A stretch of DNA of 55,262 nucleotides from Patescibacteria group bacterium (GTDB lineage: Bacteria > Patescibacteriota > Minisyncoccia > Minisyncoccales > UBA5738), in the NCBI GenBank assembly GCA_022710775.1, contig JAKLGH010000009.1:1-55262 (forward strand), read 5' to 3'. The position numbers and the translations under genes are program-made. Shown here piece by piece: positions 16,763 through 20,830 of this stretch (positions are counted from its first letter, which is position 1; every line of letters starts with the position of its first letter). A model generated the notes under the pieces. The model was given only the letters and a program-made list of their open reading frames with translations, made no database searches and had not been told where the DNA came from.

Positions 16763-17272
16763 CTACTGCAAAAATTTTTGCTTAACGCTCTCGGGAACGC
16801 GCGAAATGATCATGATCGTAAACGCATCCCCGAAAGGATTCCCGCCCTTAGTATAATAGACGGCAACGTCCCCGATCTTGAAAGCCTCATAGAGATCGTC
16901 AAGGAACGTTTTGCCCTCCCCCCTCATCGCAATCGCAAAATCCTCATTGCTCCAGGCCGCTCTAATCTCTCTTCCCGTTCCCAGCTCAAGATAATACTTC
17001 CCGACCGTATAAATCCCTTCCTGATCTCCGATAAACTCGTCGAGCAGGAGTATCCGCCACTCGCCGTAATCTCCAAGAGCGATTACGCGATCCGGAATTC
17101 TTCCAACACGGAACTGTTCAATACCCGGCAGATCTTCCGCGGAAGAAACTCTTAAAATCTGATTAATTCTCTGTATTCCGACTTCGTGCTCCCTGTAGCC
17201 GTTTGGCGGCAAGCGCACGCCGTAAGGCACGCCGTTGTCCGTCAAAACCAACGGATTGTTTGCCAATTTCAT
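16763..17272 (-). CDS. Hypothetical cytoplasmic protein (169 aa)
   Basis: No signal peptide or membrane helix and no cysteine. Mixed alpha/beta composition with segments GVPYGVRLPPNGYREHEVG, RVIALGDYGEWRILLLDEF and KIGDVAVYYTKGGNPFGDAF. I do not recognise a family. It is transcribed alone from a strong promoter (17337-17364) through a long leader and ends at its own terminator, so it is a single-gene unit. The gene diverges from the structured plus-strand unit that begins at 17474. The leader (17273-17330) has the hairpin AGGGTTTTAAAACCCT, which could affect expression. Confidence 0.65.
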   Translation of the reverse strand: MKLANNPLVLTDNGVPYGVRLPPNGYREHEVGIQRINQILRVSSAEDLPGIEQFRVGRIPDRVIALGDYGEWRILLLDEFIGDQEGIYTVGKYYLELGTGREIRAAWSNEDFAIAMRGEGKTFLDDLYEAFKIGDVAVYYTKGGNPFGDAFTIMIISRVPESVKQKFLQ

Positions 17273-17473: not shown

Positions 17474-17502
17474 TTGACAAATTATGTCATATATGCTATA
17501 AT
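17474..17502 (+). promoter_or_regulatory. Consensus promoter of the three-gene structured unit
   Basis: TTGACA (17474-17479), a 17-nt spacer and TATAAT (17497-17502). Transcription should begin near 17509, over 500 nt before the first start codon at 18041. Confidence 0.85.
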
Positions 17503-17508
17503 TATAAT

Positions 17509-17850
17509 ATCCGAAGATAGGAAAGCACCTGAAAATAACAATTATAATACTTTCTTTAGAGGAGAGAGTACCACCCCCAAAGGCCGAAAGCCCCAGGGAA
17601 CGGATCGCCAAACAATGACTATTCAAGGCGGCCGGGAAACTCACCATCTAAAGGAGGAGTACCGGCCGCCTTTAAAGATATATGGAGGAAACCTGGGAGA
17701 ATGATGGAGAGGAGAGAGTGGAAGCGAGGCACTGTCCTTCAGGGTTAACCTAAGGATGGTCCAACAAAACGCTTCTCGGGAACGGTGAGGAAAATTTATC
17801 AACAATTGTCCAATACCCTAACCCACACTCATCCCCATCATCCTCCCAAG
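17509..17850 (+). ncRNA. Long structured leader RNA, unrecognised family
   Basis: About 340 nt with no ORF and many complementary segments. An 11-bp perfect stem AAGGCGGCCGG/CCGGCCGCCTT lies at 17625-17672, enclosed by CCCAGG/CCTGGG (17592-17697). A second domain is closed by ATGATGG/CCATCAT plus GGGAG/CTCCC (about 17695-17850) and contains ACTGTCCTT/AAGGATGGT and GAAGCG/CGCTTC. The hairpin-loop segment CTCACC (17640-17645) can pair with GGTGAG (about 17784-17790), a possible pseudoknot. GAGGAGAGAGT and GGGAACGG each occur twice, which suggests an internal duplication. It is not RNase P, tmRNA, SRP or a riboswitch class I can match. It is either an independent RNA or a very large 5' regulatory region of the downstream genes. 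Confidence 0.55.
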
Positions 17851-17937
17851 TCAAAATAGCAATAAGCAGGGAGTTAATGAGTTTATGAGTTGATGAGACG
17901 AGCAATGCTTCAAAAACGCGTCTTTTGAGCGGCGACT

Positions 17938-17969
17938 TGAACGGCAGAAATGCTTTTCAAATCGCCGCT
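17938..17969 (+). promoter_or_regulatory. Hairpin before gene 1 of the structured unit
   Basis: AGCGGCGA and TCGCCGCT pair (8 bp), extended by TTGAA/TTCAA. It is followed by the segment AGCAGAAAAATTTAACAATT, which recurs in nearly the same form after each copy of the 129-bp module. Confidence 0.6.
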
Positions 17970-18040
17970 AACAAAAGCAAGTGAGCCCAAAGCAGAAAAA
18001 TTTAACAATTCAAAATACTAGGAAAGGAGGACTGAGAAAA

Positions 18041-18487
18041 ATGGAAATTATTGGAGAAGCTAGGTTGGATAGACTTCAAGCAATATTCGCAGCCATGGGC
18101 GGAAACCCATTTGAATATTATCCTGCGGATATGATAGCAACCATTCCGGGGATTAAATGGAAGCAAGGCATCATGCAAGGAGTCGACTTTAACAAGCTAA
18201 CCGAGGGTCAACGTTATCTCATGGAGGAGATATGCGTCCTAAGGCGAGCGGTATCCGAAGCCAAGAATCACATAAACCAAGCAAGAAACCATTTGACCGG
18301 AAACTACGACCGAACAGCAGTTGAGGCCTTTGAGGAAAGAAAAAACTTCGAGCCCCCATGTTTCGAGTATGGTAGCGGATCTGGAAACTATGTTAGCAAT
18401 TTAGTTTCCAGAAATGGAATACTGTACTTCGTTGCGCGGCTTCCAAACTATCGGGAGCAGTTAATCCCGATAGCAGTAAACGCGTAA
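18041..18487 (+). CDS. Unknown protein 1 of the structured unit (148 aa)
   Basis: The start is set by AAAGGAGG ten nt before the ATG. The protein begins MEIIGEARLDRLQAIFAAMG and is soluble. A helical middle (KLTEGQRYLMEEICVLRRAV, then SEAKNHINQARNHL) is probably a coiled or helical hairpin, and the C-terminal beta part reads NLVSRNGILYFVARLPNYRE. No signal peptide, no metal-binding Cys/His cluster, no known domain. It is the first gene of a three-gene plus-strand unit with long structured non-coding stretches between genes. The initiation context GACTGAGAAAAATG is repeated before gene 2 (GATTGAGAAAAATG), which suggests a shared translation signal. Function unknown. Confidence 0.7.
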   Translation: MEIIGEARLDRLQAIFAAMGGNPFEYYPADMIATIPGIKWKQGIMQGVDFNKLTEGQRYLMEEICVLRRAVSEAKNHINQARNHLTGNYDRTAVEAFEERKNFEPPCFEYGSGSGNYVSNLVSRNGILYFVARLPNYREQLIPIAVNA

Positions 18488-18500
18488 AGAAGTATTTGTA

Positions 18501-18629
18501 GTATGAGGAAGGAGGGCCTTTAATCCCCTCCAAGCGGCAACGGAAGAGGCCGCATAATAAATAAACTCTTCCTTTCACTTGAGGCTGTGATCGTAAGATC
18601 GTAGCCTCAAGCAGAAAAGTTTAACAATT
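18501..18629 (+). repeat. 129-bp structured module, copy A
   Basis: Aligned with 19267-19395 it differs at about 8 positions (about 94% identity). It contains GGAGG/CCTCC, GGAAGAG/CTCTTCC and a 12-bp hairpin GAGGCTGTGATC/GATCGTAGCCTC closed by GTAA, with two G-U pairs. In copy B the loop becomes GTTT and the outer pairs change while pairing is mostly kept. It ends with AAGCAGAAAAGTTTAACAATT-type sequence. Confidence 0.85.
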
Positions 18630-18648
18630 AAATAATGAAAGTGGGCGT

Positions 18649-18703
18649 CGGTTCGGGAGGCAGTCCTTAAATTAATAATAAATCGAAGGACTCCCCCGAA
18701 CCG
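18649..18703 (+). promoter_or_regulatory. Large hairpin before gene 2
   Basis: CGGTTCGGG pairs with CCCGAACCG and the inner AGTCCTT with AAGGACT, leaving a 17-nt A/T-rich loop. It lies 48 nt before the ATG at 18751. There is no T-run after it, so control of RNA stability or translation is more likely than termination. Confidence 0.6.
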
Positions 18704-18750
18704 CCGCTCAAAGAATAACGCGGCTTTAATCTTTAAGAGGATTGAGAAAA

Positions 18751-19272
18751 ATGAGAACTATGCCACCATGCCCGGAAACCCCAGCCAGGGGTAACGTATC
18801 GAACGGAAAGAAAACCGAATCTCCCGTCGTTGACGGGGTAATGATAAGAACCACCCACCGCGTTGCGGTTCGGGTGACCTGGCCAGGCGGTGCCTGGGCC
18901 AACTTTATGGAGGATGGAACCTTTTTTTCTAGATCCACCTCCGTTAGCAACGAAGACGTCGCTGAAGCTAGAAGGATCCTCCCCAATATGGAGGAAGTAG
19001 CCACCCAGCGCCGAGCCTTCCGCACCCTCCTTCGGGAGGAAGCGGAGCAAGTCTTAACGGATAGCCGGATTCATTACCCAGGCCGGGGCCATTCCAAGAA
19101 TATCGGAGGCTGCAGAAGAAGCCTCTGGGCTTCAATGGCCGAAGAGCTAAGAGCTCTCGGTTACCAGACAGTAGAAGTCTGGGAACCCTGGTGCCAGCAG
19201 CGTGGGTGTGATACCCACAACTGGTGCCTCTGGCCCCCGGTACCCTACCGGGAAGAAGCTTATATAGCATGA
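18751..19272 (+). CDS. Unknown protein 2 of the structured unit (173 aa)
   Basis: ATG 18751 is preceded by AAGAGG. The protein is basic and soluble. A beta-rich part reads GVMIRTTHRVAVRVTWPGG; a helical part contains DVAEARRILPNMEEVA and TQRRAFRTLLREEAEQVL. The C-terminal half has GRGHSKNIGGCRRSLWASMA, then VEVWEPWCQQRGCDTHNWCL, with four or five Cys and two His that might bind a metal. No family is recognised. It follows copy A of the 129-bp module and is followed at once by copy B. The G+C content is higher than that of neighbouring genes, so horizontal origin is possible. Confidence 0.65.
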   Translation: MRTMPPCPETPARGNVSNGKKTESPVVDGVMIRTTHRVAVRVTWPGGAWANFMEDGTFFSRSTSVSNEDVAEARRILPNMEEVATQRRAFRTLLREEAEQVLTDSRIHYPGRGHSKNIGGCRRSLWASMAEELRALGYQTVEVWEPWCQQRGCDTHNWCLWPPVPYREEAYIA

Positions 19273-19395
19273 AGATGGAGAGCCTTTAATCCCCTCCAAG
19301 CGGCAACGGAAGAGGCCGCATAATAAATAAACTCTTCCTTTCACTTGGGGCTGTGATCGTTTGATCGTAGCCTGAAGCAGAAAAGTTTAACAATT
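19267..19395 (+). repeat. 129-bp structured module, copy B
   Basis: Direct repeat of 18501-18629. It begins within the last codons of gene 2 and ends in AAGTTTAACAATTTAATG. The hairpin GGGCTGTGATC/GATCGTAGCCT is kept with compensating or wobble changes. Confidence 0.85.
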
Positions 19396-19438
19396 TAATG
19401 TTGCGGCGCTAAGCCGCCAACCAGTCCGATGAACTTCA

Positions 19439-19762
19439 GATCGGGGAATAGCGTGAGAAATTGCCTGCCGCAAGGCAAGGCACCGTCCCCGATCCGCGCT
19501 GCGGTTAAGGAACAAAAATCTCTCTCCTCTAAGCGCTGATTCTCGGTTTGATATTTATCAAGGAGCTTGCTCCCAACTGGTTTGCGGCTTGGCGCCAGCA
19601 AATTAAAAAAGCATCGCCCAAAACAACAATTTAACCATTCGCACATTCGCGCGAATGTGCGAATGGTTGAAAAAGGAAAGTTCTTTTGACAATTGAAATT
19701 TTTTGCCAGGTTTTGGCGCAGGGGTTTTGGCTTTATTTGGCCGAAAGTCCTGCGCCGAAACC
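19439..19762 (+). promoter_or_regulatory. Hairpin-rich 420-nt intergenic region before gene 3
   Basis: Three strong inverted repeats lie between copy B and gene 3. GATCGGGGA/TCCCCGATC (19439-19494) encloses a small TTGCCT/AGGCAA stem. A perfect 36-bp palindrome lies at 19633-19668, with arms from AACCATTCGCACATTCGC. GGTTTTGGCGCAGG pairs with CCTGCGCCGAAACC (about 19711-19762, one or two G-U pairs). No ORF with a ribosome site is seen here. Confidence 0.6.
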
Positions 19763-19812
19763 CGGCACCGGCTGTAATGCCGAAAAATTGACATAGTAAG
19801 GAGATGCAAGAG

Positions 19813-20790
19813 ATGGATGGGATGAATAGCGAAGCAATTTTCGCCGACAGCAGAGACTTGGCCGCCTACGCGGTCCGCGTTGCACGCGTACCGGGCATCG
19901 GCCTGGTAATGCGGTGCGATAACGCCATCGGATATCTTCCGGAACTGATGGAAAAGAAAATTGAACCCCCTCTTATCATTTCAAGCCGGGGAAACAACAA
20001 TAGATTAACCGGGTTTGTAAAGATTGAGGGAGGCAGGTCCCACCTTGAACATGTGGTGGGTATCAAAGGTTTCCCGTTCCAAACCAAGCTTAATGCCTTC
20101 CGGGCCTTGCCAACACCCATGCAGGTGGTTATTGTGCCTGCAGACACCCGGATGGAAAAAATCCAAACGGATGCCAGAACCGCCCGCGCCGCTTTCAGGG
20201 CGATTGAAGCCAGAAGCGACGTTCAAAAAGAGTCAGTGATCATTGCCGCGGGCAATGATATGCTGGTCCAGGGCTGGGAAATTCTTTTGTCCGCCGATAA
20301 TTCGGACATGCCGTATTTCCCAGAGGAACCCCGAAAAGAACTTTTCTCGGCAGAAAATATGGTTAACGCGGCGCTCCGCCAGCACGCAAAGCGCCTGGAC
20401 GAAAATCCGATCGGAGGCGATGGCCAGCAGTTTATGCTGCTAAATAAAATTCTCGCCGACGAAGCTGTCGGGGATAACAGCTGGCGGGATAAGCTCTTAC
20501 CCGCCTACACCAGGAGGTTGGCCGGAAAAGATGCCGAAGCTATTGTTTCCCGGCTGGCACAAAGGATGCGCGAGGACGGCTGGTCGCTGACAATCGACAT
20601 GGCCGACAACACGCTTCCCTTGAAAGCTATTGCGCCGGACGGGGAAATTGTAACTTCTGGTCTACGCCTGGGAAGTGTCAAGGACCGGACATATTGGAAA
20701 GAGCTTTTAGTCGAGCTTTGCGACGGACTTGGCTTTGAAGCTCAGAAAAAGCTGCTTTGCCAATTCGAACCGCAAAAGGCATTGGCTTAA
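19813..20790 (+). CDS. Unknown protein 3 of the structured unit (325 aa)
   Basis: The start at 19813 is favoured over ATG 19804 because AAGGAG (19798-19803) is 9 nt upstream. The protein begins MDGMNSEAIFADSRDLAAYA and is soluble with mixed alpha/beta composition: VVIVPADTRMEKIQTDARTA, QKESVIIAAGNDMLVQGWEI and KDAEAIVSRLAQRMREDGWS. The VIIAAGND and VVIVPADTR strands followed by helices would suit a Rossmann-like or TIM-like fold, but no catalytic motif stands out. No signal peptide. It closes the unit; a terminator follows at 20804. Function unknown. Confidence 0.7.
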   Translation: MDGMNSEAIFADSRDLAAYAVRVARVPGIGLVMRCDNAIGYLPELMEKKIEPPLIISSRGNNNRLTGFVKIEGGRSHLEHVVGIKGFPFQTKLNAFRALPTPMQVVIVPADTRMEKIQTDARTARAAFRAIEARSDVQKESVIIAAGNDMLVQGWEILLSADNSDMPYFPEEPRKELFSAENMVNAALRQHAKRLDENPIGGDGQQFMLLNKILADEAVGDNSWRDKLLPAYTRRLAGKDAEAIVSRLAQRMREDGWSLTIDMADNTLPLKAIAPDGEIVTSGLRLGSVKDRTYWKELLVELCDGLGFEAQKKLLCQFEPQKALA

Positions 20791-20803
20791 AGCGACGCTA
20801 TAA

Positions 20804-20830
20804 CAGGGAATGATCTTCCCTGGTTTATTT
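20804..20830 (+). terminator. Terminator of the structured unit
   Basis: CAGGGAA-tgatc-TTCCCTG followed by GTTTATTTT on the plus strand. Confidence 0.75.

Follow-up and report, generated by a model that had tools for sequence, protein, structure and literature searches.

Does a transcription unit that gives a large share of its length to structured non-coding RNA exist for its proteins or for its RNA? We addressed this question for positions 17474 to 20830 of a 55,262-nucleotide (nt) stretch of DNA from a Patescibacteria group bacterium, here called the window (contig JAKLGH010000009.1 of assembly GCA_022710775.1; all coordinates refer to its forward strand). The nearly complete genome assembly (1.16 Mb) is denoted G000. 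A first-pass annotation, made from the letters alone, had proposed that the RNA of this unit is functional in itself, with the encoded proteins as its partners. The first half of that proposal is strongly supported by homologues in three families, covariation, copies devoid of open reading frames (ORFs) and the complementarity of a motif with an antimotif; the second half found no support. The annotation also overlooked that the element extends beyond this locus. Judged from comparative sequence data, there is little doubt that selection acts on the element at the level of RNA, and the unit probably belongs to a hitherto undescribed family of large structured RNAs with looped-out passenger genes. 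Three rival explanations were considered, in the order of a regulatory leader, a protein-titrating sponge and a cassette array.

Layout of the unit and its RNA domains

The unit is headed by a sigma-70-type promoter, TTGACA-17-TATAAT (17474..17502, on the plus strand like all features of the unit for which a strand is assigned), which matches the consensus at 12 of 12 positions and has an extended -10 element. The predicted consensus promoter was thus confirmed, and very similar promoters, in some cases in tandem, lie 5' of the RNA in relatives. The leader (17509-18040, 532 nt) is followed by ORF1 (148 amino acids (aa), 18041..18487), ORF2 (173 aa, 18751..19272) and ORF3 (325 aa, 19813..20790), each with a purine-rich ribosome site, in agreement with the earlier description, which had put the leader at about 530 nt. 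The terminator that had been noted is present as a modest hairpin of the intrinsic type with a T-rich run (20804..20830), and it recurs 3' of ORF3 in G001, a species of the same genus. The non-coding share is indeed large, though at about 1,375 of 3,322 nt slightly below the more than 1.4 kb of 3.3 kb given before. The description as highly structured RNA also held: in comparison with dinucleotide shuffles, the fold of the leader has a z of -6.7 and that of the spacer between ORF2 and ORF3 (19270-19800) a z of -11.6, and in neither case was any shuffle equally stable.

Three RNA domains were recognized. Domain I (17689..17853) is a multi-branched structure closed by the stem P1 (17694-17711/17831-17848). 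It is preceded by hairpin 1 (17549..17571), which carries the first copy of a purine motif, AGAGGAGAGAG (17558-17568), and by hairpin 2 (17622..17675; AAGGCGGCC/GGCCGCCTT). The second copy of the motif (17708..17718) lies at the inner 3' end of the 5' strand of P1. Domain II (18641..18712) is a hairpin with an asymmetric internal loop (GGG..AGTCCTT / AAGGACT..CCC). Domain III (19401..19602) is a long stem around the antimotif CTCTCTCCTCT (19520..19530), a perfect complement of the purine motifs that is mostly unpaired in the local fold. We rejected the idea that Domain I is a short coding gene: by eye, the shared ATGATG leads into differing frames with early stops, and in G001 a stop follows after seven codons.

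The RNA is conserved while genes are exchanged

The first-pass annotation had suggested looking at gene order in relatives. In G001, the unit occupies the corresponding position and is flanked, as in the window, by tRNA-Gly, a nucleotidyltransferase-like gene, tRNA-Phe, a Nudix gene and tgt. The non-coding blocks, whose lack of co-conservation that annotation would have held against its own proposal, are 71-90% identical to those of G001 at the DNA level (blastn), as compared with 67% for ORF3. ORF1 and ORF2 are missing from G001, and a different ORF of 145 aa occupies their place. Among 99 relatives, ORF1 and ORF2 are present in the window genome alone and the 145-aa ORF in G001 alone. Since the non-coding blocks are conserved and ORF1 and ORF2 are swapped, the conserved frame is the RNA, and the protein content is partly replaceable.

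A DNA search led to G004, and the copy in G004 in turn led to G003 and G002, all three from the sister genus. In G003, a stretch of about 385 nt holds the promoter, Domain I, the hairpin of Domain II and, at its end, a hairpin with T-run that is the proposed counterpart of Domain III. No ORF lies between these RNA domains, and the fold has a z of -10.1. The order of domains is the same in G004, again without an ORF (z = -7.9), and both copies have their own promoter and their own terminator. The window contains the three RNA domains in the order seen in G003, with ORF1 and ORF2 separating them. Because the sister genus carries the same RNA without the genes, what stays constant is the RNA rather than the proteins. 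At the level of sequence and predicted structure, this comparison shows Domains I, II and III to be conserved RNA, of which two sister-genus genomes carry a compact, ORF-less gene. Domain II, which recurs in G001, G003 and G004, also has further copies at a second locus in G000 and in G001.

The replacement of ORF1 and ORF2 by the 145-aa ORF would also be expected of an integron-like cassette or mobile array, in which repeated modules serve as recombination sites and ORFs are the swapped cassettes. A module is duplicated 3' of ORF1 and 3' of ORF2, as the first-pass annotation had noticed; its length is however 147 nt rather than 129 bp. Copy 1 (18487..18633) contains a hairpin (18578-18611) and the repeated GCAGAAAAGTTTAACAATT, and copy 2 (19253..19399) is 91% identical to it. 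Orphan ORFs, a repeated module between them and a single promoter do resemble integron cassettes. However, the module was found only twice in the window and once, shortened, in G001, it is not attC-like on inspection, and searches for plasmid, phage or viral relatives of ORF3 had no result. In addition, it is RNA structure that is conserved in the constant part: covariation (see below) and ORF-less homologues require selection at the RNA level. A cassette array is therefore highly improbable.

Homologues in three families and covariation

From the five sequences of the GTDB family (G000-G004), we built a covariance model of Domain I (R1) and searched 387 genomes with it. It detected Domain I in all five genomes of that family, which are its building set, and outside this set in G085 (E 2e-14), G053 (4e-8) and G189 (2e-5). 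The model rebuilt with eight sequences (R3) added G104 (1.5e-6) and G117 (1.3e-4). These five genomes belong to two other families of the same order, so that the RNA is found in three families in total. All five distant members share with the window leader the order of a promoter of the same type, a hairpin 1 bearing the motif, hairpin 2 (GGCGRC/GYCGCC in the distant members) and Domain I; a counterpart of hairpin 2 is present in G001 as well. Further weak hits (G108, G086, G022, G087, G361, G213 and others) are not claimed as members, and G361, the strongest of those obtained with R1, looks by eye like coding sequence.

In a sequence-only alignment of ten members, P1 showed two-sided compensatory changes in 10 of 18 pairs (17 cells). 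This value was not attained in any of 500 shuffles, and slid versions of the stem gave 1-3 pairs. Domain II, aligned from six copies, had two-sided changes in 7 of 23 pairs (0/500 shuffles). Several members, belonging to different genera, contribute to these covarying changes.

With Rfam 15, the window yielded four tRNAs only at the gathering threshold, permissive searches of the unit and its relatives gave nothing but tRNAs above threshold, and no description of this RNA was found in the literature collection searched.

Complementarity between the two ends of the RNA

The best downstream complement of the second motif copy (17708-17718) is the antimotif within Domain III. The first copy is likewise matched, 17556-17568 being perfectly complementary to 19520-19532. 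The motif has a complement of 11 out of 11 nt in the window, G001, G003 and G053, of 11 nt with one G-U pair in G004 and of 10 nt in G085, while the best complement in 100 composition shuffles per locus was 9.5-10.5. Domain I with a covarying P1 and an adjacent purine motif is thus joined by a downstream complement of 10-11 nt in six of the eight loci compared (the window, G001, G002, G003, G004, G053, G085 and G189). Both strands of the proposed pairing have changed relative to the window in G003 (AGAGGAAAGAG/CTCTTTCCTCT) and G004 (AGAAGAGAGAG/TTCTCTCTTCT). ORFs are present between motif and antimotif in the window, G001, G053 and G085 and absent from G003 and G004. We infer from these sequences that motif and antimotif kiss and thereby loop out what lies between them.

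The motif resembles a Shine-Dalgarno sequence, is present 2-4 times in the RNA of several members, where it often lies in hairpin loops, and follows promoters that are strong and sometimes tandem. These properties recall the CsrB/RsmZ sponge RNAs, which present repeated GGA-containing motifs in hairpins, and repeats of AGAGGAGAGAG could accordingly sequester an RNA-binding protein or ribosomes. However, CsrA was found in 0/8 RNA-bearing genomes tested, while it was detected in control genomes. Moreover, the RNAs of G003 and G004 each contain just one motif, near Domain I, and not the many GGA hairpins of a sponge, and the antimotif is better explained by pairing. A sponge is accordingly very unlikely. 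As a genome-wide signal, the motif was rejected because in most genomes its reversed control occurs about equally often; tight clusters were noticed at loci positive with the covariance model only.

In G003, G004, G053 and G085, the antimotif resides in the proposed counterpart of Domain III, a hairpin that coincides with or adjoins an intrinsic terminator. In G053, the predicted fold pulls part of the antimotif into the hairpin. Domain III, merged with or adjoining the terminator in G003, G053 and G085, could thus belong to a long cis-regulatory leader or attenuator chain, in which Domain I and a switch formed by motif and antimotif would govern either termination at Domain III or ORF translation. 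The RNA is indeed often located just 5' of genes, prfB in G053 and G003 and the trmD region in G085, and ORF3 is a real protein (see below). However, the downstream gene varies (prfB, tRNA genes, the trmD region, a patatin-like gene in G004, ORF3 in the window), the ORFs are unrelated, and the copies in G003 and G004 possess promoter and terminator without any ORF to be regulated. We therefore consider a regulatory leader unlikely, albeit the least improbable of the three rivals. Adjacency to prfB was also tried as a rule and rejected, as it holds for G053, G003 and G002 only. A second locus near prfB exists in the genus of the window (G000:C12:151600-155200, L036/L144; G001:C42:30400-37100, L143). 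Here, Domain II hairpins lie 3' of the same type of promoter together with several more ORFs of no recognized family, three of which are conserved between G000 and G001.

The encoded proteins

The statement that the proteins match no known family was borne out. ORF1-ORF3 gave nothing above the cut-off in Pfam, NCBIfam, PHROGs and PADLOC, ORF3 had no convincing match among PDB sequences, and scans of public contigs with ORF1 and ORF3 gave nothing. The AlphaFold models obtained for ORF3 from two sequences (predicted local distance difference test score, pLDDT, 34.5) and for ORF2 from a single sequence (pLDDT 50) were of insufficient quality for fold searching. An orthologue of ORF3 was found in G001 (61% protein and 67% DNA identity) and none beyond the genus among 59 relatives. 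Between the two orthologues, nonsynonymous divergence (dN) is 0.26 and synonymous divergence (dS) 1.86, giving a dN/dS of about 0.14. By this pattern of substitution, ORF3 is a real protein under purifying selection.

Across the loci compared, the ORFs have no family in common, the orthologues in G000 and G001 excepted. This, together with the restriction of ORF1 and ORF2 to one genome, their replacement in the sister species, the two ORF-less copies in the sister genus and the position of ORF3 3' of Domain III, outside the paired part, argues against the proteins being partners of the RNA. Csx3-like proteins (PF09620) are encoded in or beside the RNA loci L080 (G189, E 8e-30) and L175 (G117, 2e-5); in G117, genes for a vWA-like protein and a bpMoxR-type ATPase follow downstream.

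Further features of the window

A near-perfect palindrome (19630..19671) is dispersed in G000 (contigs C32, C7 and C6), occurs at the same site in G001 and is probably a small inserted repeat element. A stable hairpin 5' of ORF3 (19705..19766) is partly conserved in G001. On the minus strand, a divergent ORF of 169 aa and no known family (16763-17272) has its own 12/12 promoter (17364-17337). Also on the minus strand, a second transcript start resembling that of the unit (TTGACAAATCTTTGGTATCATGCTATAAT) precedes a structured and mostly non-coding stretch of about 880 nt (12560-11680; fold z = -4.3) with a short ORF and no confident hit to the RNA models.

Comparison with known RNA systems

Structured RNAs that tolerate an ORF in a peripheral loop are known from group I and group II introns, of which ORF-less versions exist. 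Unlike these, the RNA described here is a free-standing gene with its own promoter and terminator, neither a match to the Rfam models of intron catalytic cores nor an ORF for a reverse transcriptase or endonuclease being found in the unit. In behaviour, the RNA comes closest to the large ornate bacterial RNAs GOLLD, ROOL and OLE, whose kissing loops show conserved covariation (PMC12286853). GOLLD and ROOL, both of unknown function, are encoded in phages and prophages, often near tRNAs. Their linker is disordered or poorly conserved, and that of GOLLD contains tRNAs in some cases (PMC12286853). The unit shares with all three a large, elaborate RNA and, as proposed above, a kissing pairing. It differs from them in that it does not match their Rfam covariance models and has protein-coding ORFs between the two complementary elements. 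Unlike for GOLLD and ROOL, no phage context was found at this RNA.

A probable large structured RNA with passenger genes

Taken together, our data are consistent with a multi-domain RNA that would be transcribed from a strong promoter of constitutive type and whose two ends would be joined by motif-antimotif pairing, with the intervening sequence looped out. The looped-out region may tolerate small coding cassettes with their own ribosome sites that turn over quickly between species. In the window, Domain III would no longer be the end of the transcript, and the genus-specific ORF3 behind it would be expressed by read-through. The RNA may act as a stable non-coding RNA, be it a scaffold, a ribonucleoprotein or an RNA-only complex, and the ORFs would be passengers that gain from its promoter and from the stability of the transcript. 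By analogy with the RNAs discussed above, a stable scaffold-type non-coding RNA is the likeliest role. The complementarity of motif and antimotif also makes a homo-oligomeric RNA-only complex possible.

Several observations weigh against this explanation. The sample is restricted to ten members, five of them from one family, and the shuffle controls are uncorrected for the relatedness of the sequences. G117 and G189 are weaker hits, and beyond the family the alignment of the Domain I interior is poor. The covariance model scores the opposite strand, too, because the stem is palindromic, and strands were therefore assigned by the promoter. The motif is of low complexity with an ambiguous register in G004, and the downstream complement in G189 comprises only 8 nt. 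G002 has kept Domain I with a different terminator; the motif and Domains II and III have been lost there. A closed pairing in the window would have to span about 1.8 kb of translated RNA. Finally, at least one protein matters, because ORF3 is under purifying selection.

New families of large structured RNAs are rare, and several of those known formed unexpected assemblies. For a lineage with small genomes, it is costly to keep a structured RNA of 0.4-2 kb, and the element described here carries a long-range interaction that is open to testing. The presence of orphan genes inside a conserved non-coding RNA bears on the birth and persistence of genes in reduced genomes. Tentatively, and with somewhat more doubt than confidence, we suggest that such units may represent a mixed class of coding and non-coding RNA, a kissing-closed landing frame in the loops of which lineage-specific genes would arise or be exchanged and be expressed from the promoter of the RNA.

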